From: Saccharothrix luteola
GTDB lineage: Bacteria > Actinomycetota > Actinomycetes > Mycobacteriales > Pseudonocardiaceae
NCBI RefSeq assembly: GCF_020859565.1
Contig: NZ_JAJHUO010000016.1
Location: 135,269 to 199,268 of the forward strand
Direction: 5' to 3'
Length of the DNA: 64,000 nt
This document shows positions 25,169 to 45,642 of the stretch, in pieces. The translations under genes were made by a program, and so were the position numbers. The stretch's first letter is position 1. Every line of letters starts with the position of its first letter. The notes below the pieces were generated by a model that was not told where the DNA came from, ran no database searches, and saw only the letters and a program-made list of their open reading frames with translations.

Positions 25169-25964
25169 GTGGGACTGGTCGAGTCTTTGTACGCTCGACG
25201 GCTGCGCCGTCAGGTGGCGAGCGGTCTGCTTCCCCGCCACGTCGCGCTCATCATGGACGGGAATCGTCGCTGGGCCCGCGAACGGGGTTACGCGAACCCC
25301 AGCATCGGTCACCTGCACGGCGGTGAGCACCTGGAGACCGTCCTGGGGTGGTGCGCCGACCTCGGCATCCGGTATGTGACCGTGTTCGTCGCGTCGAGCG
25401 ACAACCTGCGCAAGCGCGGTTCGGAGGAGACGGCCTTCCTGATGGAGGTCGTCGAACGGGTCGTGGTCGACCGGGTGGTGGCGCGGTCGGAGAGGTGGCG
25501 CCTGAACGTGACCGGGCGGCTCAACCTCCTCCCCGACTCGACCGCGCACGCGCTCAAGAGGGCGCGGGACATGACGTTGGAGCGTGCGACCGACTCGGAG
25601 TTTGACGGTCGCGGTCGGCTACGACGGCCGCGAGGAGATCGTCGACGCGGTCCGCTCGCTGCTCGACCAGGCCGCCGAACGCCGTGTCACCGTTGAGGAA
25701 CTGGCCGCCACGCTCACCGTCGAGGACATCACCGCCCACCTCGACCCCGCCGGCAGGCCGGACCCCGACCTCGTCATCCGGACCAGCGGCGAACGCCGGC
25801 TCTCCGGTTTCCTGTTGTGGCAGGCCGCCGATTCCCGGTTGCACTTCTGCGACGTCTACTGGCCCGCTTTCCGGCAAGTGGACTTCCTGCGCGCATTGCG
25901 CTCTTACGCGGTGCGGCGGGGTTCCCAGCCACGCCCCTCACGATGTGCGAAACCTCGTCCGTGA
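25169..25964 (+). pseudogene. cis-Polyprenyl diphosphate synthase (UppS family), frameshifted
   Basis: Codons 1-144 from GTG 25169 encode the N-terminal half with the catalytic HVALIMDGNRRWARERG (Asp30), the GGEHLETVLGWCADLGI helix and ASSDNLRKR. The match then continues in the +1 frame: LTVAVGYDGREEIVDAVRSL, PDLVIRTSGERRLSGFLLWQ (diphosphate-binding RTSGE) and the C-terminal WPAFRQVDFLRALRSY. Removing one T from the TTT near 25603 restores a normal 264-residue protein reading TDSELTVAVGYDG. All key motifs survive, so this is a recent frameshift or a base-calling error. The full protein would condense isopentenyl diphosphate to a Z-prenyl diphosphate. Confidence 0.8.
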
Positions 25965-25997
25965 GCTGCCGGCGAGGGGTGGGCCACGCGCCCTCGG

Positions 25998-27899: not shown

Positions 27900-27903
27900 G
27901 TGA

Positions 27904-28506
27904 TCAGTCTGCCGCCCTCTCGCGGACGCCGAGCCGGAGCGCTTTCCGGGATCGCAGCGACCCGACAAGGCAGCGGTCGGCGAAGGGGACGCCCAGGACC
28001 TGCTGCGCGAGCTGCGGCAGGACCCGGCGGTGGCCGAGGTTTCGCTCGACTACGAGCGGCGTACCACGGCCACGCCCGGAGACCCGTTCTTCGCGAGCCA
28101 CCAACTGTCCTGTTCGGACACGGTTCGGCTGGGACAGGCTTGGGACGTCAACAAAGGCTCGACCGGTCAGGTGGCCGCGGTGCTGGACACCGGCGTCAAC
28201 GGGCTGCACGACGATCTGCGAGGTGTGACGGTCACCGGCTACAACGCCCTGACCGGCGTGGAGATCGCGGCCGGCGCCGACTCGGACGACCACGGCCACG
28301 GCACGATGACGGCCGGGATCGCCGCGGCGAACACCGGCAACGGGATCGGTATCGCCGGTGCGGCCTGGACCGCCCGCGCGATGCCGGTCAAGGTGCTCGA
28401 CGCCGGTGGCCGCAGCGACTCCACCACCGAGTACCGGTGGGTCCACGCCGGGTCGACGGCGTTCATCGGGTGCGACTCCCCGATCACGACGGTCCGGGTC
28501 AGGTGA
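27904..28506 (+). pseudogene. Subtilisin-like (S8) peptidase fragment
   Basis: Open frame without signal peptide or plausible start, directly after a stop at 27901. It begins inside a propeptide-like segment (AQDLLRELRQDPAVAEVSLD), continues through VAAVLDTGVNGLHDDL (catalytic Asp) and DDHGHGTMTAGIAAANTGNG (catalytic His), and loses similarity after VLDAGGRSDSTTE. The oxyanion Asn and the catalytic Ser (GTSMA) region are missing. Both ends are truncated, so this is a dead remnant of a secreted protease, wedged between two intact genes. Confidence 0.75.
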
Positions 28507-28656
28507 GCGGGTTCGACCCGAACCGGTCGTGACCGGCCGGCTCGTGACCGGTCGCGGCCGGCGCTGTCGCCACCTGGGAGACGGCCTCCGCATGGTCTGC
28601 GCACCCGCGGAGGCCGTCGCCGGTGGGAGCCGTCTGGTGATCTCACCGCCTCGGCG

Positions 28657-29880
28657 TCACCGGAGGCAGTCGCGGACGGCCTTGGCCAGGTCGGCCGCGC
28701 GCGGGTCGTCGGGGCGGAAGTTCCACAGGTTGGTGACGTAGGCGAAGCCGACACCGGCGTCCGGGTCGGCGAAGCCGATCGACCCGCCGGAGCCGGGGTG
28801 GCCGAACGACCCCGGGCCGAGCATCGGCATCGGCGGGCAGGACCGCCAGAAACCGAGGGACATGTTGAAGGAGCGGTCGGCCGGGATCTCCAGGCCCGCG
28901 GGCAGGCCGTGCATGCGGGTCCCGCCGGTCTGGACCTCCGTCGCCCGCTCGACGGTCGCCGGGTCGAGCAGCCGCACGCCGTCGACGTCGCTGACCGTGG
29001 CCGCGTACATGCGGGCGATCGAGTGCGCGTCGGCGACCATGTTCGCGGCCGGGAACTCGGCGGCGCGCCAAGCACGGGTGGTGAAGTAGGCGGAGGTGTT
29101 GTCGAAGGCGCCGCCGACCTCGCCGGCGCGGGCCTGGACCGAGTCCGCGCCCCAGACGGCCTGGACCCAGGCGGTGACCGTGTCGGCGTCCAGCCCGGTC
29201 GTGGCGATCATCCCGGCGAGCAGTTCCTCCACGCTGAACGGTGCGGCGTAGTGGAGGGTGGCGACGCGGTCCTCGTGCTCCTCGGGCAGCCCGATCCAGG
29301 CGTCGAGGCCGAGCGGGGCGGCGACCTCGTCGGCGAAGTACGTGCCGAGTGACTTGCCGGTGACCCGGCGGACGACCTCGCCGACGAGGAACCCGTAGGT
29401 CATGCTGTGGTAGACGTGCTCGGTGCCCGGCTGCCACAGCGGCGCCTGCGCTTCGAGCGCGCGGATGACCGGGTCCCAGGCGCACGCCTGCTCGAACGTC
29501 AGCGGCCCGTCCACGATCGGCAGGCCGACCTGGTGCGAGAGCAGCCAGCGGACCGGGATGTCGGCCTTGCCGTTCGCGCCGAACTCCGGCCAGTACCTGG
29601 TCACCGGGGCGTCGAGGTCCAGCTCGCCGCGTTGGACCAGCATGTGGGCGCAGATGGCGGCGGCGCCCTTCGTGGTGGACGCGACCTGGACGATCGTGTC
29701 CCCGGTCCACGGGCGGTTGGTCTCGCGGTCGGCCAGGCCGTCGCGCAGGTCGACCACCGGTCGTCCGCCGACGTAGACGGTGCACGCCGCTCCGACCTCG
29801 CCGCCGTCCGCGAAGTTCGCGCGGAAGACGTCGGCGACCTTGCCCCAGCCCTGCTCGACCTGCTCGTAGGTGGTGTTCAT
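28657..29880 (-). CDS. Serine hydrolase of the beta-lactamase/EstB family
   Basis: A 407-residue class-C beta-lactamase-fold protein. The catalytic Ser-x-x-Lys is in VASTTKGAAAICAHML (about residues 68-71), the Tyr motif in EHVYHSMTYGFLVG, and the third motif in FGHPGSGGSIGFADPDAG, where HPG replaces the lactamase KTG as in esterases of the EstB/LACTB group. No signal peptide. ATG start. It follows the DUF4097-like gene by 30 bases and probably shares its transcript. Likely an esterase or peptidase rather than a resistance enzyme. Confidence 0.86.
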   Translation of the reverse strand: MNTTYEQVEQGWGKVADVFRANFADGGEVGAACTVYVGGRPVVDLRDGLADRETNRPWTGDTIVQVASTTKGAAAICAHMLVQRGELDLDAPVTRYWPEFGANGKADIPVRWLLSHQVGLPIVDGPLTFEQACAWDPVIRALEAQAPLWQPGTEHVYHSMTYGFLVGEVVRRVTGKSLGTYFADEVAAPLGLDAWIGLPEEHEDRVATLHYAAPFSVEELLAGMIATTGLDADTVTAWVQAVWGADSVQARAGEVGGAFDNTSAYFTTRAWRAAEFPAANMVADAHSIARMYAATVSDVDGVRLLDPATVERATEVQTGGTRMHGLPAGLEIPADRSFNMSLGFWRSCPPMPMLGPGSFGHPGSGGSIGFADPDAGVGFAYVTNLWNFRPDDPRAADLAKAVRDCLR

Positions 29881-29910
29881 GGTGATTGGTCCTTCCTGGT
29901 GGGTCGGGGT

Positions 29911-30738
29911 TCAGGCCGTGGCGCGGTGGATGACGATGTCGTCGAGCCGGGTGCGGGCGTGGATCTTGACGGTGTCGGTGGGGTTGGTCGGTGCGGGCAG
30001 GGTGTTGCGCACGACGCCCTTGGTGCTGTTGGCGTCCACTTCGGCGGTGGCGTCGTCGGGGACGCCGATCTCGATGCCGCCGGAGGCGTTGGCGAGTTCG
30101 ACCTGGCCGCGGGTGACGTGGCCGATGCGGATGGGGCAGTTGGCGGCGCGGGCGGTGACGCTGCCGTCCGCGTGGTCGACGGTGAAGGCGCCGTTGGAGC
30201 CGCCGAGGTCGATGTCGGAGCGGGCGTGGCCGATCCAGACCTCGCCGGTCGTGCCCTGGTAGCGGACGGTGCCGTCGACCTCGCCCAGCCGCAGGCCCGC
30301 CGTGCCGCCGTCGACGTCGACGGCGCCCGCGACGTGGTCGACCTGGACCGTGCCGCCGCCGAGGTTGCCGCGCAGCGCGGCGACCCGGTCGAGGAGGACG
30401 TGGCCGGAGGCGGTGTTGAGCTCGCAGGCGCCGAGTGGGCCGGTGGCGCGCACGTCGCTCCACGCGGTGTTCAGGACCAGTGCGGAGCCGGCGGGCAGCT
30501 CGACGGTGATGGCGACCGAGCCGGTCTTGTCGCCGGACTTGGTGGTCTTGATCGACAGCGTGCCGTCGGTGAAGTCGATCTTGGTGCGTTCCGCGACCTT
30601 GACGTCGGTCTTGTTCGCGCTGTCGAGCGGCTCGACGTGCACGACGGTGTCGGCGCGGTCGCCGGCGGTGACCCGGACGTGGGCGCCGGCGGTGGTCAGC
30701 GCGGCGGTGACGGGTGCCGGCGTGGTGAAGCTGGGCAT
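29911..30738 (-). CDS. DUF4097-like beta-helix protein
   Basis: A 275-residue protein of repeated short beta strands, typical of DUF4097/putative adhesin domains: GSVAITVELPAGSALVLNT, CELNTASGHVLLDRV, GEVWIGHARSDIDLGGSNG and GQVELANASGGIEIGVP. It should form a right-handed parallel beta helix. No signal peptide is seen, so a cytoplasmic scaffold is more likely than an adhesin in actinomycetes. ATG with GGGGAG 8 bases upstream; first gene of a pair with the EstB-like hydrolase. Function unknown. Confidence 0.82.
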   Translation of the reverse strand: MPSFTTPAPVTAALTTAGAHVRVTAGDRADTVVHVEPLDSANKTDVKVAERTKIDFTDGTLSIKTTKSGDKTGSVAITVELPAGSALVLNTAWSDVRATGPLGACELNTASGHVLLDRVAALRGNLGGGTVQVDHVAGAVDVDGGTAGLRLGEVDGTVRYQGTTGEVWIGHARSDIDLGGSNGAFTVDHADGSVTARAANCPIRIGHVTRGQVELANASGGIEIGVPDDATAEVDANSTKGVVRNTLPAPTNPTDTVKIHARTRLDDIVIHRATA

Positions 30739-31419
30739 GTCGCATCTCCCCTGGTGAGTGGCCCGTCCGGGGTGGTCGGGCCGTTCGATGGGGATACGAT
30801 CACCGGCCGCGCTGACACCGTGCAGCCACGGCGCTGACACTGTCCTGTCCGCGGCCCGGTGGCGATGACAGCGCCACCGCCCGGCACATCGCGCTCTGTC
30901 AGCTGTCGCCGACGTGGACGGTGCCGCCGAGGGCTACGACCTGTTGTTCCAGATCCCGGGTTCCGGCTTGGTGCCGGAACGGGGTCGAGGTCCAGCTTGC
31001 GCCGGAACGCCGCCGGCGGACCAGACCTTGGAGGTATTCCCGTCGAACGGGGGTGGACGCCTGTGAGGTCGACCGCCCGGCCTGGTCGTCGGTGTGAGAT
31101 CAACAAGACGCTGACTAGTCCTCTGGGGTAACGAGATGCGTGTCGGCCGGTATGCGGCAGGGTGTCTTGTGCGTTGCAGCGCGGATGCGTATACATACCG
31201 ACCATAGATCGGATGTATGAGCGGGGGGTGCGCGCGGTCGCCGAAGTTGTCCGGCTCTGCGATCGATGTCAACAGTCGAAACCGAGGAGCGCAGTTGCAG
31301 CGAACGAGTTGTCCGACCACCGCCGCGCTCGACCGCACAGGTCGAGTTGCCGGCGCCGGGCGTGCCGCCGGCTCGGCCGCGGACGAGATGCGCACCCTCC
31401 GCCGTGCGGGGGTGCGGCG
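30739..31419. other. Intergenic region with palindromic operator-like site
   Basis: This 681-base divergent region holds promoters for both neighbours. No ORF with convincing protein composition is present; a short frame around 30905-31065 is not recognisable. A 10-bp interrupted palindrome lies at 31191-31218, described separately. Confidence 0.45.
31191..31218. promoter_or_regulatory. Inverted repeat upstream of aldo/keto reductase
   Basis: ATACAT(A)CCGA pairs with TCGGATGTAT with one bulged base and an 7-base centre. It is AT-rich relative to its surroundings and lies about 200 bases before the reductase ATG, so it may be an operator for an unidentified regulator. Confidence 0.35.
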
Positions 31420-32391
31420 ATGAGCGGTGACACCCGGGAACTGCCGCGACGTCCACTCGGGACCACCGGCGTCACCGTGACCGAGTTGGGGTTCGGCGCC
31501 GCGCCGATCGGCAACCTCTACCGGGCTCGACCGGACGACGTGGCCCACGCCGTCATCGAGGCGGCCTGGGCGGAAGGGGTGCGGTACTTCGACACCGCGC
31601 CCCACTACGGGCTCGGCCTGTCCGAACGGCGGCTCGGCGCCGCGTTGGCCGGCCGGCCGCGCGACGACTACGTCATCTCCACGAAGGTCGGACGGCTGCT
31701 GGAGCCGAATCCCGCGCCCACGGGCTCGGACCTGGCGCACGGTGGGTTCGACGTGCCGGACGACCAGGTCCGCGTCCGCGACTACAGCGCCGACGGGGTG
31801 CTGCGCAGCATCGACGCCAGCCTGCGGCGCCTGGGTGTCGACCGGATCGACATCGTGCTCGTCCACGATCCCGACGACCACGTCGACCAAGCGCTGACCG
31901 AAGCCGTTCCCGCCCTGGTCGCGCTGCGCGAGCAAGGGGTCGTGCGGGCGGTCGGCTTGGGGATGAACCAGTGGCAGGCGCCGCTGCGGGCGGTCCGGGA
32001 GACCGACGTCGACGTCATCATGGTGGCCGGCCGTTGGACCCTCGTGGATCGAACGGCGGCGCCCCTGCTCGACGCGTGTGCGGAACGCGGGGTGTCGGTC
32101 CTGGCCGCCGCTCCCTACAACTCCGGTCTCCTGGCTCGGCCCTGGCCGCCGGACGACGCCTACTTCGACTACGGGCCGGCGCCGGCCGACGTGCTCGCGG
32201 TGGCCCGGTCGTGGGCCGGGACGTGCGAGCGGCACGGGACCACGCTGCCGCACGCGGCCATGGCGTTCCCGTTGCGACACCCTGCCGTCGCGTCCGTGGT
32301 CACCGGGCTCGGCGCGGTCGACCACGTCCGTGCCGCCGCGGACCGGATCCGGGAACCGGTGCCGGAAGGCCTGTGGGCCGCCGGCCGGTGA
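31420..32391 (+). CDS. Aldo/keto reductase (L-fucose dehydrogenase-like)
   Basis: A 323-residue TIM-barrel NAD(P)H oxidoreductase. The catalytic tetrad is visible: Asp and Tyr in VRYFDTAPHYGLGLSERRLG, Lys in VISTKVGRLL and His in IDIVLVHDPDDH. Nicotinamide-binding features occur in LAAAPYNSGLL and FPLRHPAVASVVTGLG. The subgroup oxidises aldoses such as L-fucose or D-arabinose to lactones, or pyridoxal. Coding starts at the ATG at 31420; the ribosome site is weak. It is the intact relative of the deleted reductase at 6362. A GH13 remnant and a ROK regulator lie downstream on the opposite strand. Confidence 0.9.
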   Translation: MSGDTRELPRRPLGTTGVTVTELGFGAAPIGNLYRARPDDVAHAVIEAAWAEGVRYFDTAPHYGLGLSERRLGAALAGRPRDDYVISTKVGRLLEPNPAPTGSDLAHGGFDVPDDQVRVRDYSADGVLRSIDASLRRLGVDRIDIVLVHDPDDHVDQALTEAVPALVALREQGVVRAVGLGMNQWQAPLRAVRETDVDVIMVAGRWTLVDRTAAPLLDACAERGVSVLAAAPYNSGLLARPWPPDDAYFDYGPAPADVLAVARSWAGTCERHGTTLPHAAMAFPLRHPAVASVVTGLGAVDHVRAAADRIREPVPEGLWAAGR

Positions 32392-32402
32392 ACCGCCGGG
32401 GC

Positions 32403-32942
32403 TTAGGTGGCGTCGAGCCAGTCGCAGCTCTCGCGCCACAGCCGGCCCGTCTCCACGAGGCCGGGGTCGTCCTTGACGAGCGACGCCGCCATGTCGACGC
32501 GGAACCCGGCGACCCCCAGGTCGAACCAGTGCGCCATGATCTCCCGCAGCGCGGCGCGGTTGGCCCGCGGCCCGTCGGCTTCGACCGGGGCGCGCCACGG
32601 CTCGTCGGGGTCGGTGCGCGCGTAGCCGAAGTTGAGCGCGGGCCGCACGGGGAAGAAGTTCGGCAGGTAGGAGCCGCCGCGCCGCCCCGAGCCGGGCACG
32701 AAGCCCTCGACGGGGACGTCGCTCCACACGTACCGGTCGTCGTCCGGGTCGTCGGCGGACGCCCGGAACCAGGGGTGCTGGTCGGAGGTGTGCCCGGCGA
32801 CGACGTCGAGCCACACGGCGCCGACGCCCAGCCACCGCAGGTAGTCGAGCCGGGCGGTGATCTCGGCGAGGTCGCCGATCCCGTCGGCGCCGGCACGGCC
32901 GGAGTCCGCGAAGCTCTGCGGGTACAGGTGGGTAGTGCCGCT
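32403..32942 (-). pseudogene. GH13 alpha-glucosidase/amylase remnant with internal deletion
   Basis: In one frame, and directly after the ROK gene stop, the segment LYPQSFADSGRAGADGIGDL and ITARLDYLRWLGVGAVWL (start of a GH13 barrel) is joined to DVVAGHTSDQHPWFRA, which normally lies some 55 residues later after the YDV and loop regions. It continues through LGVAGFRVDMAASLVKDD (catalytic nucleophile Asp) and stops at WLDAT, before the acid/base Glu. There is no start codon. The gene has therefore lost both ends and an internal block. It would have belonged to the ROK transcription unit. Confidence 0.75.
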
Positions 32943-32957
32943 GCCCGATCTCGGACG

Positions 32958-34151
32958 TCAGACCGTGCCGGTGATCGTCGCCTTGATGGCCAGAGCGGCG
33001 CCGGACCTGGCCCACTCGCTGTGGTCGAACGGCTGCACGTCCAGCTCCACCAACGCCGGGTCGTCGTCGAAGGTGTCCTCGATGCCGTCGTGCACCAGTT
33101 GCGTCGAGACCTCGTACAGCGGCAGGCCCTCGCCGGTGAGCAGGACCTTCTGCGGGTCGACGGCGTTGGCGACGGTGCCGATGAGCACGCCGAGCGCGTA
33201 GCCGGCCTCGTCGAACACCTGCCGCGCCTGCGGGTCTCCCGCGCGGGCCCGGTCGAGTGCCTCTTCGTAGGTGGGGCGACCGGTCAGGCGTCGCAGTATC
33301 ACGTGCGTCAGCAGGTAGGCGGAGACGCACCCGCGCCGGCCGCAGCCGCACAGCGGTCCGCGTGCGTCGACGAGGGTGTGGCTGAAGCAGGGCGGCAGGC
33401 CGTGCGCGCCTTCGACGAGGCCGCCGTTGAGGATCAGCCCGGTGCCGACGCCCGCGCCGACGGTGATGACCGCCATGGACCGCAGTCCGGCGCCGGGACC
33501 GAACCAGTGCTGCGCCGCGGTGAGCGCCTGCACGTCGTTGCCGACCGCGGTGGGGACGCCGGTGGCCCGGGTTACCGCGGCCTTGAGCGGCACGTCGGTC
33601 CAGCCGAGGTGCTCGTCGCGCACCACCACACCGTCGAGGGCGATCCCGCCCAGCGTCACCCCCACGCCGGTCGCGAGGGGGAAGCGCGTGGCCACGTCGG
33701 CGATCTGGGCGACCACGTCGTCGGGGTCGGGGGAGCGCAGCGGCTCGTGGGTGGCGGCGACCGCAGTCGTGGTCAGGTCGGTCATCGTGGCGTAGAGCCG
33801 TTCGGCGGTCAGCTTCACGCCGAGGAAGTGGTGTGCCCCGCCCCGCACGTGGAGCATCTCGGAGGGCCGACCGGCCGAGGGGTGCGGCCGGTTGTCGCCC
33901 TGCACCAGAAGCCCTTCGAGCATCAATGACCTGGTCACGCGGGTGAGGGTCGGCCGGGACAGGTGCAGCCGGTCGGCGATCTCGGCCCGGGACAGCGGCC
34001 CGTGGACCAGCACCTCCAGCAGGACGTCCCGGGCGACGGAGGACAGGTCCGGCCACGAGGGAGTGGTGCGGGTGCCGGCTTCCGAGGTCACCGGCCGACG
34101 ATACCGGGGCTCCCGGAGCGCGGTGCTCGCCGTCGCGTGGGGTGTTGTCAC
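32958..34151 (-). CDS. ROK-family transcriptional regulator
   Basis: A 397-residue NagC/XylR-type regulator. The N-terminal winged helix (about residues 25-80: GPLSRAEIADRLHLSRPTLT) precedes a sugar-kinase-like ROK domain with GVGVTLGGIALDG, ITVGAGVGTGLILNGGLVEG, the zinc motif CGCGRRGCVSAY and the ATP-site-like ANAVDPQKVLLTGEG. GTG start selected for GAGGAG 8 bases upstream; longer frames lack a ribosome site. A LacI-type operator-like box lies 20 bases before the start, and the gene diverges from the mannanase, suggesting carbohydrate-responsive control. Effector unknown. Confidence 0.88.
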   Translation of the reverse strand: MTTPHATASTALREPRYRRPVTSEAGTRTTPSWPDLSSVARDVLLEVLVHGPLSRAEIADRLHLSRPTLTRVTRSLMLEGLLVQGDNRPHPSAGRPSEMLHVRGGAHHFLGVKLTAERLYATMTDLTTTAVAATHEPLRSPDPDDVVAQIADVATRFPLATGVGVTLGGIALDGVVVRDEHLGWTDVPLKAAVTRATGVPTAVGNDVQALTAAQHWFGPGAGLRSMAVITVGAGVGTGLILNGGLVEGAHGLPPCFSHTLVDARGPLCGCGRRGCVSAYLLTHVILRRLTGRPTYEEALDRARAGDPQARQVFDEAGYALGVLIGTVANAVDPQKVLLTGEGLPLYEVSTQLVHDGIEDTFDDDPALVELDVQPFDHSEWARSGAALAIKATITGTV

Positions 34152-34171
34152 GAAACCACTCCTCGTGCGTG

Positions 34172-34198
34172 TGGGAGCGTTACCAGAGTTCATTACTA
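34172..34198 (-). promoter_or_regulatory. ROK gene promoter with CebR-like box
   Basis: On the minus strand TAGTAA (34198-34193) is a plausible -10. Just downstream, TGGGAGCGTTACCA (plus strand 34172-34185) matches the CebR/CelR operator TGGGAGCGCTCCCA at 12 of 14 positions and would cover the transcription start. Confidence 0.45.
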
Positions 34199-34398
34199 AG
34201 CGTGATATTCGGTGAACCGACCACCTGCGTAGTGGGAGTGACTTGAGCGGGCGTCCTCGCGTCGATCGGTTCACCTGTTCACCTCCGGTTCGGCGGGGAG
34301 GGGTGTGGGTTCATCGGCCCCGCGTGGCACGCCCGCCTGGGTGTGGCTGGTGGTGAGTGCGATCAAAACTACTGGTCAGGGACCTATACGGGCAGGCG

Positions 34399-34428
34399 TT
34401 GACTTCTCGGCGATGGCGGACGTACCGT
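34399..34428 (+). promoter_or_regulatory. Promoter upstream of the mannanase gene
   Basis: TTGACT (34399-34404) and TACCGT (34423-34428) are separated by 18 bases, a good sigma-70-type arrangement. Transcription would start near 34435 and give a 240-base leader that contains the CebR-type operator. Confidence 0.5.
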
Positions 34429-34571
34429 GTGGGAGCACAAGTTCCAGCTAGAAACTAATACGGTTCGCAGTCAGGCGCCACCCCGTTCCGCGACCGGGCC
34501 GCGACGGCTCGGGTCGAGCTGGTGGACCTCCGGGCTGCGGCCATGCAATGACGTACTGTCAACAGCTCTTC

Positions 34572-34585
34572 TGGGAGCGCTCCCA
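34572..34585. promoter_or_regulatory. CebR/CelR-type operator
   Basis: TGGGAGCGCTCCCA is a perfect 14-base palindrome identical to the site bound by the cellobiose-responsive LacI repressors CebR (Streptomyces) and CelR (Thermobifida). It lies 90 bases before the mannanase start, just after a possible -10 TACTGT at 34554-34559. The mannanase should therefore be induced by cello- or manno-oligosaccharides; the repressor gene itself is not in the window. Confidence 0.82.
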
Positions 34586-34675
34586 GGACCGTGGAGCAGT
34601 CGAACCCTGTACGAGGCTTGAGCTGGGCAGACAAACCGGACAAGTGTCATCGACTCAACGAGGTGTCGAAAGACC

Positions 34676-36028
34676 ATGAGAACAAGGATCGCTGCGGCCG
34701 TCGCCGCGCTGCTCGTCGCCGCCGGCTTAGGGACGACCGCCCTGTCACAGGCCCAGGAAGCCGCCCCGGAGGCAGTGGGCCTGCACGTCAGCGGGACCAA
34801 GGTCGTGGAGGCCGGCGGGCAGCCGTTCGTGATGCGGGGTGTCAACCACCCGCACGTCTGGTTCACCGGCGAGACCGACTCGTTCGCCGACATCAAGGCG
34901 CTGGGCGCGAACACCGTGCGCGTGGTGCTGGGCACCGGGAAGCGGTGGGGGCCGTCCACCGACGTGCCCGCCGTGATCGACCTGTGCAAGCGCAACCGGA
35001 TGATCTGCGTGCTGGAGGTGCACGACACCACCGGGTACGGGGAGGAGGGCGCGGCGGCGTCGTTGGACGAGGCGGCGAACTACTGGATCGGCCAGAAGAG
35101 CGCTCTGGTGGGCCAGGAGGACTACGTCGTCATCAACATCGGCAACGAGCCGATCGGCAACGTCGACGCCGCGCAGTGGACCGATGCGACCGCGAACGCG
35201 GTGAAGAAGCTGCGGGCCAACGGTTTCGAGCACCTGCTGATGGTCGACGGGCCGAACTGGGGCCAGGACTGGCAGAACGTCATGCGGGACAACGCCCAGA
35301 CCATCTGGAACGCCGACTCCCGCCGCAACACCGTGTTCTCCATCCACATGTACAGCGTCTACAACACAGCCTCGAGCATCACTTCCTACTTCGACGCCTT
35401 CCAGAGCAAGGGCCTGCCGCTGGTCGTCGGCGAGTTCGGCTGGCAGTTCAAGAGCGGTGAGGTCGACCACGAGACGATCCTGAGCGAGGCGCAGAAGCGG
35501 GGCCTGGGCTACCTGGCCTGGTCGTGGAGCGGCAACTCCGACCCGATCCTGGACATGGCGACCGCCTTCGACCCCGCCCGGCTCACCACGTGGGGTCAGC
35601 GGATCTTCAACGGCGCCAACGGCATCAAGGCCACCGCCAAGGAAGCCGCGATCTTCGGCGGCACGACCACGACCACCACGACCACCACGACGACGACCAC
35701 CACCACGACCACCACGCCCGGCGGCGGACTCGCCTGCACCGCCGCCTACACGGTCACCAACCAGTGGCCGGGCGGCTTCCAGGGCGAGGTCCGGATCACG
35801 GCGGGGACGTCGGCGATCAAGGGCTGGACCGTCACCTGGACCTTCGCCGACGGCCAGGCCATCACCAACGCCTGGAACGCCACCGTCACCAGCAGCGGCT
35901 CGACCGTGACGGCCCGCAACGCCGGCTACAACGGCAGCCTCGGCGCGGGCGGCAGCACCTCGTTCGGGTTCACGGCCTCGTCGCGCGGCGCGAACAGCGC
36001 CCCGACCGCCTCCTGCACCGCGAGCTGA
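34676..36028 (+). CDS. Secreted GH5 endo-beta-mannanase with CBM2
   Basis: A 450-residue exported enzyme. Signal peptide about residues 1-27. The GH5 barrel (about 35-320) carries MRGVNHPHVWFTGETDSFA and ALGANTVRVVLGTGKRWG, wording typical of the bacterial mannanase subfamily GH5_8. The acid/base Glu is in VINIGNEPIGN and the nucleophile Glu in PLVVGEFGWQF. A linker of 18 consecutive threonines (codons alternating ACC/ACG) joins a CBM2 (LACTAAYTVTNQWPGGFQGE to the final CTAS). It would cut mannan in plant cell walls while bound to cellulose. A CebR-type box upstream supports cellulose-linked induction. Endoglucanase is the alternative activity. Confidence 0.9.
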   Translation: MRTRIAAAVAALLVAAGLGTTALSQAQEAAPEAVGLHVSGTKVVEAGGQPFVMRGVNHPHVWFTGETDSFADIKALGANTVRVVLGTGKRWGPSTDVPAVIDLCKRNRMICVLEVHDTTGYGEEGAAASLDEAANYWIGQKSALVGQEDYVVINIGNEPIGNVDAAQWTDATANAVKKLRANGFEHLLMVDGPNWGQDWQNVMRDNAQTIWNADSRRNTVFSIHMYSVYNTASSITSYFDAFQSKGLPLVVGEFGWQFKSGEVDHETILSEAQKRGLGYLAWSWSGNSDPILDMATAFDPARLTTWGQRIFNGANGIKATAKEAAIFGGTTTTTTTTTTTTTTTTTTPGGGLACTAAYTVTNQWPGGFQGEVRITAGTSAIKGWTVTWTFADGQAITNAWNATVTSSGSTVTARNAGYNGSLGAGGSTSFGFTASSRGANSAPTASCTAS

Positions 36029-36040
36029 CCCGGTCACACC

Positions 36041-36192
36041 CGTGGGGGGGGGGGGGGGGGGCCACCCCCCCCCCCCCCCCCCCCCCGCGCGGGGGGGGGG
36101 GGGGGGGCCCCCCCCCCCCCCCGCGGGGGGGGCGGGGGGGGGGGGCGGGCGCCCCCCCCCCCCCCCCGGGGGGGGGGGGCCCCCCGGCCGGT
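36041..36192. repeat. Extreme G/C homopolymer tract
   Basis: From 36044 to 36192 every base but one (A at 36064) is G or C, arranged in alternating runs: G18, C22, G17, C15 and so on, ending with G12 and C6. The runs are mutually complementary, so the tract could fold into long hairpins or G-quadruplexes. It lies 13 bases after the mannanase stop where a terminator is expected. Homopolymers of this size are atypical and most likely mark an assembly or base-calling artefact over a strong hairpin; a real low-complexity element cannot be excluded. Confidence 0.85.
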
Positions 36193-36406
36193 CTGGCAGG
36201 CTCGGCCGCGACCACGGGGCACGGCGGCCGACCGTTGGTGACCCAGCGTCGTCAGGCCATTGCGCGGGATCACACGAACCACCGCAAAGCCGAGTCGCGC
36301 TCGCACGGTCCGTCACCGGAAATCTCGCGGCGACCCGGACTGGTTGCGGGCGGAACTGCTTGCTTCAACCCCGCGAAACGTGCCTGTAACACCAGGGGCG
36401 GGACAG

Positions 36407-36444
36407 TTCACCTGTACGAAACCTGAGGCGCAACCGCGTGAAAC
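36407..36444 (+). promoter_or_regulatory. GlnR-like box upstream of amtB
   Basis: The half-sites TTCAC-n6-GAAAC-n6-CGCAA-n6-GAAAC fall at exact 11-base steps, matching the actinobacterial GlnR layout GTnAC-n6-GAAAC repeated. Both GAAAC b-sites (36418-36422, 36440-36444) are perfect, while the a-sites are degenerate. A further GAAAC-n6-GTAAC pair occurs at about 36375-36390. GlnR activates amtB-glnB-glnD under nitrogen limitation in related genera. Confidence 0.6.
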
Positions 36445-36490
36445 AGGACATACCGATGCTCCCTGCAACCGACGTGCAGTGGAGGTCGAC

Positions 36491-38169
<1,679 letters not shown>

Positions 38170-38199
38170 GGATCCGAAGTAGGAATGGGAGACGGCCGT

Positions 38200-40554
38200 A
38201 TGGATAACGCCGAGGCGGCCGTCGTCACGGCTGACGACCTGGTGCGAGCACGCGATCGGCTGCTCGCGCCAGGTCGGCGCCGTTTGACGGGGGAGTCGCT
38301 GCGCGAGGCGCTGGTGGACCTGCACGAGTTCTGGCTCACCGCGCACGCCTCGCTGTCGGGCGTCGGCGGACCGGGCAGTGGGGTCGCACTGGTCGCCGTG
38401 GGGGGTCTGGGCAGGCGGGAGCTGGTGCCCTATTCCGATCTCGACCTGCTCTTGGTGCACAACGGGCACAAGGGCGTGGACGGGATCGCCGAGAAGCTCT
38501 GGTACCCGCTGTGGAACTCCGGCATCGGCCTCGACCACTCGGTGCGCACGGTCGGCGAGGCGCTGCGCGTCGCCGCCGGTGACCTGCGCACCGCGTTGGG
38601 GCTGCTGGACATCCGCCACATCGCGGGCGACCAGGAGATCAGCAAGCGGCTGACCGACAGCGCCCGGCAGGCGTGGCGCACCGGGGTGCGCACGAGGCTG
38701 GACGAGATGGCCGAGTCGGCGTCGCGGCGGTGGGCCCGCAGCGGCGAGATCGCGCACCGCGTCGAGCCGGACCTCAAGCACGGCCGCGGTGGGCTGCGCG
38801 ACGTGACGCTGCTGGACGCGTTGAGCGCGGCGCAGCTGACCGACCGGCCGTCCGCCGAGGTCAACGAGGCCCGCAAGCTGCTGCTGGACGTGCGCACCGA
38901 GCTGCGCCGGGTGGCGGGCAAGCCGCGCGACGTGCTCCGCGCGCAGGACGGTGACGAGGTCGCCACCGCGTTGGGCCTGCAGGACCGCTTCACGCTGGCC
39001 CGGTCGATGTCGTCCGCCGCCCGCACGATCGTGTACGCCGTGGACGTGGCCATGCGCACAGCGCGCGCCGCGGTGCCCAAGCGCGGGCTGGGCGTGTTCG
39101 CCCGTTCCCCGCTCAGGCGTGCCCCGGCCAGGCGCCCGCTGGACGAGGGCGTGGTGCTGCACGGCTCCGAGGTGGCGTTGGCGCGTGACGCCGTGCCCAG
39201 CCGCGACCCGGCCCTGCTGCTCCGCGTCGCCACGGCCGCCGCGCGCAGCAAGCACCCGATCGCCCCGGGCACGTTGGCCAAGCTCGCCGACTCGGCACCG
39301 GAGCTGCGCCAACCGTGGCCGAGGGAGGCCCGCGAGGAACTGCTGGCCCTGCTCGGCACCGGCGTGGGCCTGATCGACGTGGTCGAGGCGCTGGACCGCA
39401 CCGGCCTGTGGGGCAGGCTCTTCCCCGAGTGGGGCGCGGTGCGCGACCTGCCGCCGCGCGACGCCGCGCACACGTGGACCGTCGACCGGCACCTGGTGCA
39501 GGCCACCGCGCACGCCGCACGCCTGGTGACCAGGGTCTCCCGGCCGGACCTGCTGCTGCTCGGCACGTTGGTGCACGACATCGGCAAGGGCAGGCAGGCC
39601 GACCACTCCGAGGTCGGCGCGGCGATCACCACCCAGATCGCCGAACGGCTCGGCCTGTGGCCGCAGGACGTGGCCACGCTCACCGCGCTGGTGCGCCACC
39701 ACCTCCTGCTGCCGCACACGGCCACCCGCCGTGACGTGGAGGACGAGGCCACCGTGCGCCGCGTGGTGGACACGCTCGGCGGCGACCCCGTGCTGCTGGA
39801 GCTGCTCTACGCGCTGGCCGAGGCCGACGCCGTGGCCACCGGGCCGGGCGTGTGGTCGGACTGGAAGGCCTCGCTGATCAGCGACCTGGTCGCGCGCTGC
39901 CGCACGGCGATGGCGGGCGACCCGCTGCCCGAGCCGGAGCCGTTGGACCAGCGCCAGCAGGACCTCGCGCGGGCCGTGCTGGCCAGCGGCAAACCGGACG
40001 TGCTCATCGACCCGGGCGACCACGCGGCCACCGTGACGGTGGTCGCGCCCGACCGGCCGGGGCTGCTGTCCCGGGCGGCCGGCGTGCTCGCGCTGAACTC
40101 CCTGGAAGTGCACGCCGCCACCCTGCGCTCCCACGAGGGCGCGGCCGTGGACGTGTTCACGGTGTCGCCCAGGTTCGGCTCCCTGCCGGACGTGACCCTG
40201 CTGCGCGAGCAGCTCACCAGGGCGCTGGACGGCTCCCTCGCGCTGGCCGACAAGCTCGCCGCGAAGGAACGCGACTACGGCGGCCCGCCGCAGGACCCGC
40301 CGCCGCCGAAGGTGCTCTGGTTCGACGACGAGTCGACCGGCGCGGTGGTGCTGGAACTGCGCGCGGCGGACCGGATCGGGCTGCTGCACCACGTCGCGGA
40401 CGCGTTGGAGCAGTCCGGAGTGGACATCGTCTGGGCGCGGGTGTCCACATTGGGCTCCACGGTGGTGGACTCGTTCGCCATCACCTCGCCCGAAGGCGGC
40501 AACGCCGACCAGCGGCGGCGGGTCGAGCGGGCCGTGCTGCTCGCCGCGCGCTGA
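38200..40554 (+). CDS. glnD: PII nucleotidyltransferase/uridylyl-removing enzyme GlnD
   Basis: A 784-residue four-domain protein. The nucleotidyltransferase site is VAVGGLGRRELVPYSDLDLLL (about residues 65-85), the HD hydrolase site LLGTLVHDIGKGRQADHSEVG (about 450-470), and two ACT domains close it (ATVTVVAPDRPGLLSRAAGV and AVVLELRAADRIGLLHHVAD). It adenylylates and de-adenylylates PII according to glutamine. ATG at 38200 preferred: GGGAG lies 8 bases upstream, while an ATG at 38185 also has AGGA close by. Last gene of the operon. Confidence 0.93.
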   Translation: MDNAEAAVVTADDLVRARDRLLAPGRRRLTGESLREALVDLHEFWLTAHASLSGVGGPGSGVALVAVGGLGRRELVPYSDLDLLLVHNGHKGVDGIAEKLWYPLWNSGIGLDHSVRTVGEALRVAAGDLRTALGLLDIRHIAGDQEISKRLTDSARQAWRTGVRTRLDEMAESASRRWARSGEIAHRVEPDLKHGRGGLRDVTLLDALSAAQLTDRPSAEVNEARKLLLDVRTELRRVAGKPRDVLRAQDGDEVATALGLQDRFTLARSMSSAARTIVYAVDVAMRTARAAVPKRGLGVFARSPLRRAPARRPLDEGVVLHGSEVALARDAVPSRDPALLLRVATAAARSKHPIAPGTLAKLADSAPELRQPWPREAREELLALLGTGVGLIDVVEALDRTGLWGRLFPEWGAVRDLPPRDAAHTWTVDRHLVQATAHAARLVTRVSRPDLLLLGTLVHDIGKGRQADHSEVGAAITTQIAERLGLWPQDVATLTALVRHHLLLPHTATRRDVEDEATVRRVVDTLGGDPVLLELLYALAEADAVATGPGVWSDWKASLISDLVARCRTAMAGDPLPEPEPLDQRQQDLARAVLASGKPDVLIDPGDHAATVTVVAPDRPGLLSRAAGVLALNSLEVHAATLRSHEGAAVDVFTVSPRFGSLPDVTLLREQLTRALDGSLALADKLAAKERDYGGPPQDPPPPKVLWFDDESTGAVVLELRAADRIGLLHHVADALEQSGVDIVWARVSTLGSTVVDSFAITSPEGGNADQRRRVERAVLLAAR

Positions 40555-40764
40555 GGTTGCGTAGGTCTACGCACAACCGACCGAGGGTGCTCACGCTGCC
40601 GGTGGACCCCCGTGCCGGGGGAGGCTTCTCCCCGTGGCACAGGGGACCGCGCGGCCGGGGGGCGCCGGCGGGGTCAGCGCCACCGCGTGGTCGGGAGCGG
40701 CCTGTCGAGGGGTTGGGCCGCTCTCGATCACGCCCGGAACTCGTGGTCGTCCGAAACGTCTCTT

Positions 40765-40770
40765 TAGTAT
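40765..40770 (+). promoter_or_regulatory. -10 element for a leaderless transcript
   Basis: TAGTAT ends 7 bases before ATG 40778 and no Shine-Dalgarno sequence is present, so the mRNA probably begins at that ATG. Confidence 0.5.
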
Positions 40771-40777
40771 GGATGCG

Positions 40778-41320
40778 ATGACCGCTGTCGCCGTGAGGCC
40801 GCGCTCGCTGGTCGTGCTGGCCGGACTGCCGGGAGCGGGCAAGTCGACGCTGCTCGCCGCCGCCGACACGGGCGGCGCGCCCACCGTCGTGCTGGATTCC
40901 GACCAGGTGCGGACCAGCCTCCGCGCCTTCTTCCCCAAGGCCCTGCCGTACCGGCTCTACCGCCCGTTGGTGCACTTCGTGCACCGGGCCCGGATCGTGT
41001 GGTTCGCGATCACCACGAACGGCCTGCTGCTCGTGCACGAGCCGTCCACCCGCCCGACCACCCGCGCCGGCCTCGTCGCCGTCGGCGCGCTGACCAACCG
41101 GCCACGGCACTTCCTGTGGCTGGACGCGAGCCCCGAGCAGGCCCTGTCCGGCCAGGTGGCGCGGGGCAGGCTGATCCGGTCGCGGTCGTTCACGCGGCAC
41201 GTGCGCCGCGCGGCCAGGCTCCGCGCCCGGTTCGCCGAGGGCGTGCCGCCGCGCGGCTGGCAGGGCCTGACCCTGCTGACCCGTCGTGACCACCTGCGCC
41301 TGTCGGTGACGCCGGCGTGA
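40778..41320 (+). CDS. P-loop ATPase/kinase-like protein
   Basis: A 180-residue AAA_33-type protein. Walker A GLPGAGKSTLL is near residue 19, followed by VVLDSDQVRTSLRAFF, an HRARIVWFAI helix and the lid arginines RGRLIRSRSFTRHVRR. Small predicted kinases of this type phosphorylate nucleosides, sugars or peptidoglycan precursors. Start at ATG 40778 from the leaderless promoter; ATG 40769, three codons earlier, is the alternative. It lies between glnD and ffh on the same strand with independent expression. Substrate unknown. Confidence 0.75.
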   Translation: MTAVAVRPRSLVVLAGLPGAGKSTLLAAADTGGAPTVVLDSDQVRTSLRAFFPKALPYRLYRPLVHFVHRARIVWFAITTNGLLLVHEPSTRPTTRAGLVAVGALTNRPRHFLWLDASPEQALSGQVARGRLIRSRSFTRHVRRAARLRARFAEGVPPRGWQGLTLLTRRDHLRLSVTPA

Positions 41321-41375
41321 ACGGCTACCCTGAGTACGAGGAACCCACCGACGACGTGCGAGGTCTGGCGGCATC

Positions 41376-42911
41376 GTGTTCAACACCCTTTCCGACCGGC
41401 TCACCTCGGTCCTGCAGAACCTGCGGGGCAAGGGGCGGCTGTCCGAGGCCGACATCGACGCCACCGCGCGCGAGATCCGGGTCGCGCTGCTGGAGGCCGA
41501 CGTCGCGCTGCCCGTGGTGCGCACGTTCATCGCGAAGGTCAAGGAGCGCGCCAAGGGCGCCGAGGTCAGCCAGGCCCTGAACCCGGCCCAGCAGGTCGTC
41601 AAGATCGTCAACGAGGAGCTGGTCGGCATCCTCGGCGGGGAGACCCGCAGGCTCAACCTGGCCAAGAACCCGCCGAGCGTGATCATGCTCGCGGGTCTGC
41701 AAGGTGCCGGTAAGACCACCCTGGCGGGCAAGCTCGCCAAGTGGCTCAAGGGCCAGGGCCACACCCCGATGCTGGTGGCGTGCGACCTCCAGCGCCCCAA
41801 CGCGGTGACCCAGCTGCAGGTGGTCGGCGAGCGCGCGGGCGTGCCCGTGTTCGCGCCCGAGCCCGGCAACGGCGTGGGCGACCCGGTCGACGTGGCCCGC
41901 AAGGGCATCGAGGAGGCCAAGCGGGCGCAGCACGACATCGTGCTGGTCGACACCGCGGGCCGCCTCGGCGTCGACGAGGAGATGATGCGCCAGGCCGTCG
42001 ACATCCGCGCCGCCGTGCAGCCCGACGAGGTGCTGTTCGTGGTCGACGCGATGATCGGCCAGGACGCGGTGAACACCGCCACGGCGTTCCAGGACGGCGT
42101 CGGCTTCACCGGCGTGGTGCTCACCAAGCTCGACGGCGACGCCCGCGGTGGCGCCGCGCTCAGCGTCCGCGAGGTCACCGGCCAGCCCATCCTGTTCGCC
42201 TCGAACGGCGAGAAGCTGGAGGACTTCGACGTCTTCCACCCGGACCGGATGGCGAGCCGGATCCTGGGCATGGGCGACATGCTCACCCTCATCGAGCAGG
42301 CCGAGCAGGCGTTCGACGCCGACCAGGCCGAGGCCGCCGCGGTCAAGATGGGCTCCGGCCAGCTCACGCTCGAGGACTTCCTGGAGCAGATGCTGGCCCT
42401 GCGCAAGATGGGCCCGATCGCGAACCTGCTCGGCATGCTGCCCGGCGCGGGCCAGATGAAGGACCAGCTGGCCAACCTGGACGAGCGGCACCTGGACCGG
42501 GTGCAGGCGATCATCCGCGGCATGACCCCGGCCGAGCGCGACGACCCGAAGATCATCAACGCGTCCCGCCGGCTGCGCATCGCCAACGGCTCCGGCGTCC
42601 GGGTCAGCGACGTGAACGACCTGGTCAACCGCTTCTTCGAAGCGCGCAAGATGATGAGCCAGATGGCCGGCCGCTTCGGCCTGCCCGGCGGTGGCGGCAA
42701 GAACAACCGCAAGGGCAAGGGCAAGAAGGGGAAGAAGGGCAAGGGCCGCGGCCCCACCCCGCCGAAGGTGCGCGGCGGGTTCCCCGGCATGCCCGGGATG
42801 ATGCCCGGCATGCCTCCGCAGGGCGGCGGTCCCGCGCTGCCACCCGGCCTCGGCGGCTTCGACCAGCTCCCGCCCGGCTTCGACCCGTCGAAGCTGAAGT
42901 TCGACAAGTGA
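41376..42911 (+). CDS. ffh: Signal recognition particle protein Ffh
   Basis: A 511-residue SRP54 GTPase that binds 4.5S RNA and signal peptides at the ribosome. The N domain (FNTLSDRLTSVLQNLRGKGR) is followed by the G domain with GLQGAGKTTLAGKLA, LVDTAGRLGVDEEMM and TKLDGDARGG. The methionine-rich M domain has SGVRVSDVNDLVNRFFEARKMM and ends in an extended Gly/Pro/Met tail (MPGMMPGMPPQGG) typical of actinobacterial Ffh. GTG start. Its stop overlaps the next start by 4 bases. Confidence 0.97.
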   Translation: MFNTLSDRLTSVLQNLRGKGRLSEADIDATAREIRVALLEADVALPVVRTFIAKVKERAKGAEVSQALNPAQQVVKIVNEELVGILGGETRRLNLAKNPPSVIMLAGLQGAGKTTLAGKLAKWLKGQGHTPMLVACDLQRPNAVTQLQVVGERAGVPVFAPEPGNGVGDPVDVARKGIEEAKRAQHDIVLVDTAGRLGVDEEMMRQAVDIRAAVQPDEVLFVVDAMIGQDAVNTATAFQDGVGFTGVVLTKLDGDARGGAALSVREVTGQPILFASNGEKLEDFDVFHPDRMASRILGMGDMLTLIEQAEQAFDADQAEAAAVKMGSGQLTLEDFLEQMLALRKMGPIANLLGMLPGAGQMKDQLANLDERHLDRVQAIIRGMTPAERDDPKIINASRRLRIANGSGVRVSDVNDLVNRFFEARKMMSQMAGRFGLPGGGGKNNRKGKGKKGKKGKGRGPTPPKVRGGFPGMPGMMPGMPPQGGGPALPPGLGGFDQLPPGFDPSKLKFDK

Positions 42912-43984
42912 GCGGCCTGCACCTGCGGGGCGTCGTCCTCCCCGAGGGTGGCGACCCGCGGGACGTCTGGGTGGTCAACGGGCGGATCCGCACCCGGCCG
43001 GTGCCCGGCGCGACCACCGTCAGCAGCGGCGGGTACCTGGTGCCCGGCCTGGTCGACGCGCACTGCCACGTCGGCCTGGGCGCCAGGGGCGCGGTCGACC
43101 TGCCCGAGGCGGTCGACCAGGCCCTCGCCGACCGGCGGACGGGCACCCTGCTCATCCGCGACTGCGGCTCGCCGCTGGACACGCGACCGCTGCAGGAGCG
43201 CCTCGACCTGCCCCGGATCATCCGCGCGGGCAGGCACCTGGCCAGGCCCAAGCGGTACATCAAGTACCTGGGCGTCGAGATCGAGGACCCGGCCGACCTG
43301 CCGTCCGCCGTGGCCGAGCAGGTCGCCGCCGGCGACGGCTGGGTGAAGCTGGTCGGCGACTGGATCGACCGCTCCACCGGCGACCTCGCGCCCCTGTGGA
43401 CCGAGGACGTGCTCACCGAGGCGATCAAGGTCGCGCACGAGAACAAGGCCAGGGTCACCGCGCACGTCTTCGGCGAGGACGCCCTGCCCGCCCTGCTCAA
43501 CGCGGGCATCGACTGCATCGAGCACGGCACGGGCCTGACCGACGACACGATCGCGCAGATGGCCCGCAACGGGACCGCGCTGGTGCCGACGTTGATCAAC
43601 ATCGAGAACTTCCCGGCCATCGCGGCGGGCGCCGACAAGTACCCGGTCTACCAGGGCCACATGCGGCACCTGTACGAGCGCAACACCGAGACCATCGCGA
43701 AGGCGGTCGAGGCGGGCGTGCCGGTGTTCGCGGGCACGGACGCGGGCGGCGGCATCGAGCACGGCCGGATCGTGGACGAGATCAAGGCGCTGCACGGGGT
43801 CGGCCTGAGCACCACCCAGGCCCTCGGCGCGGCGTCCTGGGCCGCCCGCGAGTGGCTCGGCTTCCCGTCGCTGACCGAGGGCGCCGCGGCCGACGTCGTG
43901 GTCTACGAGGACGACCCGCGTGAGGACCTCGACGCCCTGCGGCACCCGAAGCTGGTCATGCTGCGCGGCCGGATCCACGCCTGA
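42908..43984 (+). CDS. Amidohydrolase family protein (imidazolonepropionase/prolidase-like)
   Basis: A 358-residue metal-dependent hydrolase. Metal ligands lie in VPGLVDAHCHVGLG, the bridging Lys region in DGWVKLVGDWID, His in VTAHVFGEDAL and IDCIEHGTGLTDD, and the catalytic Asp in PVFAGTDAGGGIEHG. Small N- and C-terminal beta strands form the usual composite domain. GTG start overlaps the ffh stop, a pairing common in actinomycetes. It may act on dipeptides or organophosphate-like esters; the substrate is unknown. Confidence 0.87.
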   Translation: MSGLHLRGVVLPEGGDPRDVWVVNGRIRTRPVPGATTVSSGGYLVPGLVDAHCHVGLGARGAVDLPEAVDQALADRRTGTLLIRDCGSPLDTRPLQERLDLPRIIRAGRHLARPKRYIKYLGVEIEDPADLPSAVAEQVAAGDGWVKLVGDWIDRSTGDLAPLWTEDVLTEAIKVAHENKARVTAHVFGEDALPALLNAGIDCIEHGTGLTDDTIAQMARNGTALVPTLINIENFPAIAAGADKYPVYQGHMRHLYERNTETIAKAVEAGVPVFAGTDAGGGIEHGRIVDEIKALHGVGLSTTQALGAASWAAREWLGFPSLTEGAAADVVVYEDDPREDLDALRHPKLVMLRGRIHA

Positions 43985-44029
43985 CCTCGCGGCGCCCGGT
44001 CGGCTGCGGTAGGAAATCCGTGATGGGGG

Positions 44030-44110
44030 CGGGTGGCGAGGAGTTCTTCCGCCACCCGTGGTGAGTGCTGCCGCCGTCAGGGTGATCTTGAACGGCCTCG
44101 GGCAGCACTC
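44030..44110 (+). terminator. Two hairpins after the amidohydrolase gene
   Basis: CGGGTGGCG / CGCCACCCG (44030-44038 and 44050-44058) makes a 9-bp stem with an 11-base loop. A second inverted repeat GAGTGCTGCC / GGCAGCACTC spans 44063-44072 and 44101-44110. Neither has a T-run. Together they probably end the ffh transcript. Confidence 0.45.
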
Positions 44111-44126
44111 CGCCCCACCGGACCAC

Positions 44127-44132
44127 TACGTT
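44127..44132 (+). promoter_or_regulatory. -10 element for a leaderless transcript
   Basis: TACGTT ends 7 bases before the GTG of the first CPBP gene, which has no ribosome site. Confidence 0.45.
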
Positions 44133-44139
44133 CGGACGA

Positions 44140-44850
44140 GTGGAGGAACAGCAGGACCAGGACACCGGCCGCGCGCACTGGGGTTTCCTGGCGTTCTTCA
44201 CCGGGCTCGGCGGTTACCACCTCGCCATCCTCGCCTTCACCGCCGCGACGGCCGACCGCTTCGCCGAGGTGGACGTCACCAACCCGCCGGTGCTCGGCCC
44301 GCTCCTGCTGCTGGTCTTCCTGCCCAACGTCCTGCTCGGCCTCGGCCCCGTCGTCATCTCCTGGTACCGGGGCGACGGGCCCAACAAGGACTTCGGCCTG
44401 GTGCCCACCCTCCGCGACCTGAAGGTCGGCCTGGCCGCAGGCGGCGCGGCGCTGCTGGCCGCCTGGCTCATCGGCGCGCTGCTGCTGCGCATCAACCCGG
44501 ACCGGTCCAGCTCGCTGGACGAGATCGAAGCCCTCTCCGGCGGCCGGACGGTCTGGCTGGCCGCCGCGGCGCTGTTCGTCTTCCTCGGCGCGCCGCTGAC
44601 CGAGGAACTGCTCACCAGGGGAGCGCTGTGGCAGGCGCTGGCCCACTACCGGATACCCAGGATCGCGATCCTGGCGCTGACCGCCGTCGTCTTCGCGTTC
44701 CTGCACGAGGAGAGCTGGCGCGTGCTGAGCCTGTTCGCGCAGGGGCTGGCCATCGGCGCGGCCCGCATGATCACCGGCCGGGTGGCCTCCAGCGTGGTGG
44801 CCCACGCGACGAACAACCTGCTGCCCGCCGTCTACCTCTACACCGGCTGA
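44140..44850 (+). CDS. CPBP-family intramembrane metalloprotease
   Basis: A 236-residue membrane protein with about 6-7 helices. The Rce1/CPBP active-site motifs are present: EELLTRGALWQALA (EExxxR), FAFLHEESWR (FxxxH) and VVAHATNNLLPAVYLY (HxxxN). The family cleaves prenylated proteins in eukaryotes, and in bacteria often processes peptides or bacteriocins. GTG start, leaderless. Followed after 9 bases by a second CPBP gene on the same strand with its own -10 element, so this is a tandem duplicate pair. Confidence 0.9.
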   Translation: MEEQQDQDTGRAHWGFLAFFTGLGGYHLAILAFTAATADRFAEVDVTNPPVLGPLLLLVFLPNVLLGLGPVVISWYRGDGPNKDFGLVPTLRDLKVGLAAGGAALLAAWLIGALLLRINPDRSSSLDEIEALSGGRTVWLAAAALFVFLGAPLTEELLTRGALWQALAHYRIPRIAILALTAVVFAFLHEESWRVLSLFAQGLAIGAARMITGRVASSVVAHATNNLLPAVYLYTG

Positions 44851-44851
44851 C

Positions 44852-44857
44852 TAGGGT
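44852..44857 (+). promoter_or_regulatory. -10-like element before the second CPBP gene
   Basis: TAGGGT lies 2 bases before ATG 44860 and 8 bases before GTG 44866. If used, transcription would start at about 44864-44866 and GTG 44866 would be the leaderless start, removing two residues. Confidence 0.35.
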
Positions 44858-44859
44858 GG

Positions 44860-45642
44860 ATGGCTGTGACACGACCGGATGAACCGCCCCCGGGGCTGAT
44901 CGCCAGCGTCCGCGCGGTGGGACGGGAGCCCGAAGCGGTGCACGCGGGCCAGCGGTGGGGCTTCGGCGCGTTCCTGCTCGTCGAAGCGGTCTTCGTGCTC
45001 AGCGCGGTGTTCATCACGGCGGTGGCCAGGACCTCGGGCACGGACATCGGCTCGTCGGTGAGCTTCGTCCTGATCGGGTCCATCGTGCCGACGGTGCTGG
45101 CCGCGGCGGTCGCCGTCACCATCACCTACCTGCGCGGCAACGGCCCGTTCCAGGACCTCCGGCTCGCCTGGGACTGGGCGGACGTCAAGGTCGGGCTCAA
45201 GCTGGGCGCGCTCGGCCTGGTGCTCACCTACGTGGCCGCGGTGATCTGGTCGAGGGTGGTCGGCGACAAGAACGCCACCTCCGCGATCGGCGAGCTCGTG
45301 GACGGCGCGGGGCTGCCGCTGGCCGCCGCCGTGGCGATGTTCCTCTACGTGTGCTTCCTGGGCCCGGTGTGCGAGGAAGTGATCTACCGGGGACTGCTGT
45401 GGGGCGCGATCGAGCGGCAGCGCTGGAGCCGGTGGGCGGCGTTCGTGCTGACCACGCTGATCTTCGCGGCCAGCCACCTCGAACCGCTGCGGACGTCGTT
45501 GCTCATCGTCATCGCACTGCCCATCGGCATCGCCCGCCTCATCACCCGCAGGCTCACCGCGAGCGTGGTGGCGCACGTCATCAACAACTTCCTGCCCGGC
45601 CTGACCCTGCTCCTCGTCTCCATCGGGGTGATGCCCGCGTGA
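44860..45642 (+). CDS. CPBP-family intramembrane metalloprotease
   Basis: A 260-residue membrane protein, the second of a tandem pair. The catalytic motifs are CEEVIYRGLLWGAIE (EExxxR), FAASHLEPLR (FxxxH) and VVAHVINNFLPGLTLL (HxxxN). The N-terminus is a 35-residue polar extension before the first helix (FGAFLLVEAVFVLSAVF). The start is either ATG 44860 or GTG 44866. The stop overlaps pxpA (GTGA), so pxpA is translated from the same mRNA. Role unknown; membrane peptide processing is the family theme. Confidence 0.9.
   Translation: MAVTRPDEPPPGLIASVRAVGREPEAVHAGQRWGFGAFLLVEAVFVLSAVFITAVARTSGTDIGSSVSFVLIGSIVPTVLAAAVAVTITYLRGNGPFQDLRLAWDWADVKVGLKLGALGLVLTYVAAVIWSRVVGDKNATSAIGELVDGAGLPLAAAVAMFLYVCFLGPVCEEVIYRGLLWGAIERQRWSRWAAFVLTTLIFAASHLEPLRTSLLIVIALPIGIARLITRRLTASVVAHVINNFLPGLTLLLVSIGVMPA

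Follow-up and report, generated by a model that had tools for sequence, protein, structure and literature searches.

The two pieces of the 64,000-nucleotide stretch of Saccharothrix luteola DNA analysed here (the window, whose position 1 is C8:135269) do not belong together. Our comparisons show that the tract of G and C runs between them marks the seam in a chimeric scaffold: the 107 kb to its left are identical to sequence on contig C26, and the 62.6 kb to its right to the first part of contig C2. It does not represent a biological feature and is almost certainly not bacterial DNA. We conclude with high confidence that it is artefactual, a false-join seam most likely filled by G-tailed reads, and that it is absent from the organism. 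Because the window consists of two unrelated pieces joined at about 36044-36181, any inference drawn from the neighbourhood of its cellulase and ammonium transporter genes is wrong, and the window cannot be read as one continuous locus.

Composition and position of the tract

The tract begins 15 bases past the stop codon of the cellulase gene and lies upstream of the ammonium transporter gene (Table 1), which bears out the preliminary description in placing it where a terminator would be expected. Its sequence, from 36044 to 36185, is G18 CC A C22 GCGC G17 C15 GC G8 C G12 C GGG C G C16 G12 C6, which confirms the first description, with runs of G and C that reach 22 bases and a single A, located at 36064. 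The same description had called the composition far outside the normal range, and we agree: since all runs of at least 8 G or C in the 64 kb window fall inside the tract and none outside it, such a composition cannot have arisen by chance.

Table 1. Features of the window on both sides of the false join
Feature	Position in window	Strand	Evidence
Left window piece, a stretch also held as C26	1..36043	.	C8:63974-171354 = C26:9755-117139
GH5 cellulase with CBM2 domain, left flank, duplicate on C26	34676..36028	+	Pfam PF00150 (E 9.9e-36), PF00553 (E 9.4e-28)
Artefactual G/C tract, seam of false contig join	36044..36185	.	Composition; differences between C8 and C26/C2
Right window piece, a stretch also held as the start of C2	36182..64000	.	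C8:171412-234034 = C2:1-62619
Open frame with ammonium transporter, right flank, duplicate on C2	36260..37834	+	Pfam PF00909 (E 1.1e-126)

Among named matches, the best for the cellulase protein comes from Saccharothrix sp. NRRL B-16348. A run of threonine codons at window positions 35660-35720 makes up the linker that connects the cellulase with the cellulose-binding domain. The true start of the transporter lies further inside the open frame, near 36480.

Both flanks are present elsewhere in the assembly

When positions 35200-37200 of the window were compared by BLAST with the genome from which they come, each side of the tract returned, besides itself, a 99% copy on another contig: the cellulase side on C26 and the transporter side on C2. 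These copies match window positions 25845-36086 and 36144-46767, respectively, limits that were set by the stretches compared. Alignment of the whole contigs extended the left block to 107,385 columns with 1 mismatch and 4 gap positions, and the right block to 62,623 columns with 7 mismatches and 4 gap positions (coordinates in Table 1). The differences between C8 and C26/C2 are at 36063-36068 and 36147-36181, all of them within the tract. As the differences itemised near the seam (5 and 11) equal the totals for the whole blocks, 170 kb are free of differences outside the tract.

Past the tract, C26 and C2 each run on into sequence unlike that of C8. C26 likewise has a G/C tract after the cellulase gene, and its first 9,740 bases gave no match in the 13 other stretches compared and have no second copy in the assembly. 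The sequence that truly follows the cellulase gene in this Saccharothrix luteola strain is lost in the tract. On C2, a hairpin and another gene stand beside the transporter flank, in an order common to relatives; the 9.3 kb upstream of the transporter there have a full-length match to G015 at 94% and partial matches in G006, G020, G022 and others.

Gene order in related genomes

Eleven relatives had, among the matches listed, a cellulase-side match of at least 79%, and in none of these, all of which have both sides, are the cellulase side and the transporter adjacent (0 of 11, among the matches listed). In six they are on the same contig at a spacing of at least 1.66 Mb, and in five they are on separate contigs, again among the matches listed. 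The two flanks are also present elsewhere in the assembly (on C26 and C2) with other neighbours. Because they are not adjacent in relatives and the duplicates on C26 and C2 diverge beyond the tract, the left and right sequences are not neighbours on the chromosome.

In place of the tract, ordinary sequence follows the cellulase gene in all six relatives compared (G002, G006, G015, G019, G020 and G022) and precedes the transporter on C2. A GC-rich hairpin is found 3' of the cellulase gene in each of these six, with stems of 13-18 bp and scores of 12-18. For comparison, 300 random 160-base stretches of the window, which may include the tract, scored 6.1 on average, with the 95th percentile at 8.05 and the highest value at 29, and about 5% of random 320-base stretches of the relatives score at least 12. 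Upstream of the transporter, a score of 10 is reached in five of seven sequences (C2 and six relatives); the other two, scoring 5 and 6, have no strong hairpin. When G015 and G022 are aligned to the cellulase side, the alignment stops at window position 36044, inside the hairpin's rising arm and on the first base of the G run. With a hairpin after the cellulase gene in six of six relatives, and one also in the C2 copy of the right flank, the earlier suggestion of an assembly artefact over an unreadable hairpin is supported.

Similar tracts throughout the assembly

Spread over 59 contigs, the assembly totals 10.3 Mb; its contamination is estimated at 8.84%. It contains 276 G runs of at least 12 bases (137 + 139) and 234 of at least 13 (116 + 118); those of at least 12 are present on every one of at least contigs C1-C19. 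In the 24 other genomes of the genus, the number of runs of at least 13 ranges from 0 to 15 per genome.

We examined 51 tracts, drawn from 49 loci of C1-C19 together with the window and kept if they held a run of at least 12; the sample covers 19 of the 59 contigs. A gap of N is present beside or inside the tract, at most 60 bases away, in 21 of the 51, with none nearby in the other 30. Of the 102 tract edges, 73 have the form that fits G-tailed reads, with G on the left and C on the right (binomial p 8e-6). The 29 misfits include the right edge of the window's own tract, where the final C run (6 bases) is below the edge cut-off of 7 and was scored as a miss; its left edge fits. In four tracts (L070, L095, L097 and L029), the same sequence of 40-102 bp stands on either side, as would result from a join of overlapping contig ends without merging.

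Six other tract sites were compared with relatives, and all six have ordinary sequence there. Three of them, L094, L108 and the first tract of L250, have in the relatives a hairpin whose stem measures 14-15 bp in place of the G/C run; for L108, both flanks are side by side in G015 only, a draft, while G022 matched at the left flank alone and G020 matched weakly. At the second and third tracts of L250 and at L251:5255, the last only loosely aligned to G006, the relatives compared have no strong hairpin (scores 6-8). The idea that a hairpin underlies every tract was accordingly rejected, a strong one being found at only three of the six sites. At the second L250 tract, G022 and G006 show a 16-base overlap of the flanks, and in G020 and G023 the flanks are separated by 11-14 bases; at the third, the overlap is 61-77 bases in all four of these genomes. 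This third tract ruins the end of an open frame, presumably that of a solute-binding protein, which is clean in G022. No matching neighbourhood for L250 was found in G013, and the L251 tracts at 1453 and 19322 had no matches that settle their neighbourhood.

Occurrence in other genomes

A sample of 396 genomes from the phylum includes 12 with the word G9C9. The Saccharothrix luteola assembly has 33 such sites, followed by G132 with 11 and G362 with 9. Among the five sites listed for each of these two genomes, which belong to other families, all five in G362 and three in G132 are at most 80 bases from a contig start, and these sites are likely the same artefact.

Within the genus, G/C tracts similar to that of the window are also found at contig ends, namely the start of C2 in G021 (L052, L063), the end of C10 in G018 (L050, L062) and ends of contigs in G017 (L049, L061, L067). 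In G012, pure runs of 87 C (L046:1427-1513) and 72 G (L058:1502-1573) are located inside contigs. G019, which has two contigs, contains a run of 142 G (L051:1502-1643, near 5231161 of C1) in the middle of an open frame that we take, from its motif, to be of the cystathionine gamma-synthase type; this run is probably another assembly error.

A probable origin of the seams

If the tract is an artefact, the dark cycles of a two-colour sequencing chemistry are its probable source. Reads entering GC-rich hairpins from either side would lose signal, and a two-colour instrument would call the dark cycles as G, leaving a G tail on one side and, as seen from the opposite strand, a C tail on the other. 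Left untrimmed, such tails would provide unrelated read ends with common G and C words, which the assembler may take as an overlap and walk through. Joins of this kind would sometimes connect true neighbours, with junk replacing the hairpin, and sometimes distant places, as at the seam in the window. In the passages of PMC8002175 on which we draw, G is described as unlabelled in two-colour imaging and polyG stretches are reported, although the effect is not clearly visible in the plots shown there; a passage of PMC12527978 has polyG trimming on offer for NovaSeq/NextSeq data, and one of PMC4719071 states that Illumina errors increase around inverted repeats and in GC-rich motifs. A literature search, mainly of titles, returned no title on bacterial contigs joined via poly-G, from which we do not claim that such reports are absent.

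An artefact of other origin, such as gap filling, or error-prone polishing over hairpins on another platform, is favoured by the extended runs of pure G or C that other relatives contain, among them a genome of only two contigs, and by those edges and sites that misfit the dark-cycle model. However, the polarity of the edges, with G outward and C inward, and the restriction to G and C are best fitted by dark cycles, and we consider an origin other than dark cycles unlikely.

A real duplication is far less probable still. The chromosome would then truly have second copies of both blocks (107 kb and 62.6 kb), brought together here by a rearrangement, and noise would be confined to the G/C filling. 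Both blocks are indeed present twice in the assembly, but over 170 kb there is not one substitution outside the tract, and the ends of the duplicated blocks coincide with the end of C26, the start of C2 and the end of C8. The seam, moreover, lies exactly at a G/C tract of the kind that is widespread in this assembly, and each relative has one strong transporter-side match among the matches listed. We reject a large duplication on the exact identity of the copies and on the block ends being contig ends. A mixture of strains as the source of the duplicates was likewise rejected, because the copies are identical outside the tract.

Least probable of all, to the point of being negligible, is a real element of alternating G and C runs that folds into long hairpins or quadruplexes and serves as a terminator or other structure: its position, its self-complementarity and the many such tracts in the assembly speak for it, but we reject it on the duplicate contigs, where the same flanks have different continuations, and on the relatives, in which (among the matches listed) cellulase and transporter are not adjacent and of which the 11 single-contig genomes among the 24 have only 0-2 G runs of at least 13 each as against 234 here, with gaps of N beside or inside 21 of the 51 tracts as a further point against it. 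Of the two alternatives left by the preliminary description, the artefact over a hairpin has been sustained, the remarkable structure able to form long duplexes or quadruplexes has found no support, and the false join itself had been missed.

Implications and comparison with known systems

As biology, the false join is ordinary, and it matters as a warning: the assembly has many more such tracts, one of them spoiling an open frame, and holds some 170 kb twice. We would tentatively raise the possibility, which we think more doubtful than not, that poly-G seams mark the places of DNA hairpins whose stability halted the sequencing reaction. If this were true, some GC-rich actinomycete assemblies would systematically lose their strongest terminator hairpins, and the seams could help both to locate these hairpins and to spot false joins in public genomes.

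The tract resembles three known phenomena and differs from each. The first are the poly-G tails of two-colour Illumina instruments (MiniSeq, NextSeq, NovaSeq), in which, according to passages of PMC8002175 and PMC12527978, lost signal is likewise turned into G, or into C on the opposite strand, and which trimming tools remove; here, in contrast, the tails of a presumably two-colour platform have apparently entered a public assembly and acted as a false overlap. With the chimeric scaffolds (misjoins) of short-read assembly it shares the joining of two distant pieces that are both also present in other contigs, but the word through which they are joined has the look of sequencing noise rather than of a genomic repeat. 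Finally, a GC-rich hairpin of the kind that forms intrinsic terminators follows the cellulase gene in all six relatives compared and its place is occupied by the tract, which is itself no terminator.
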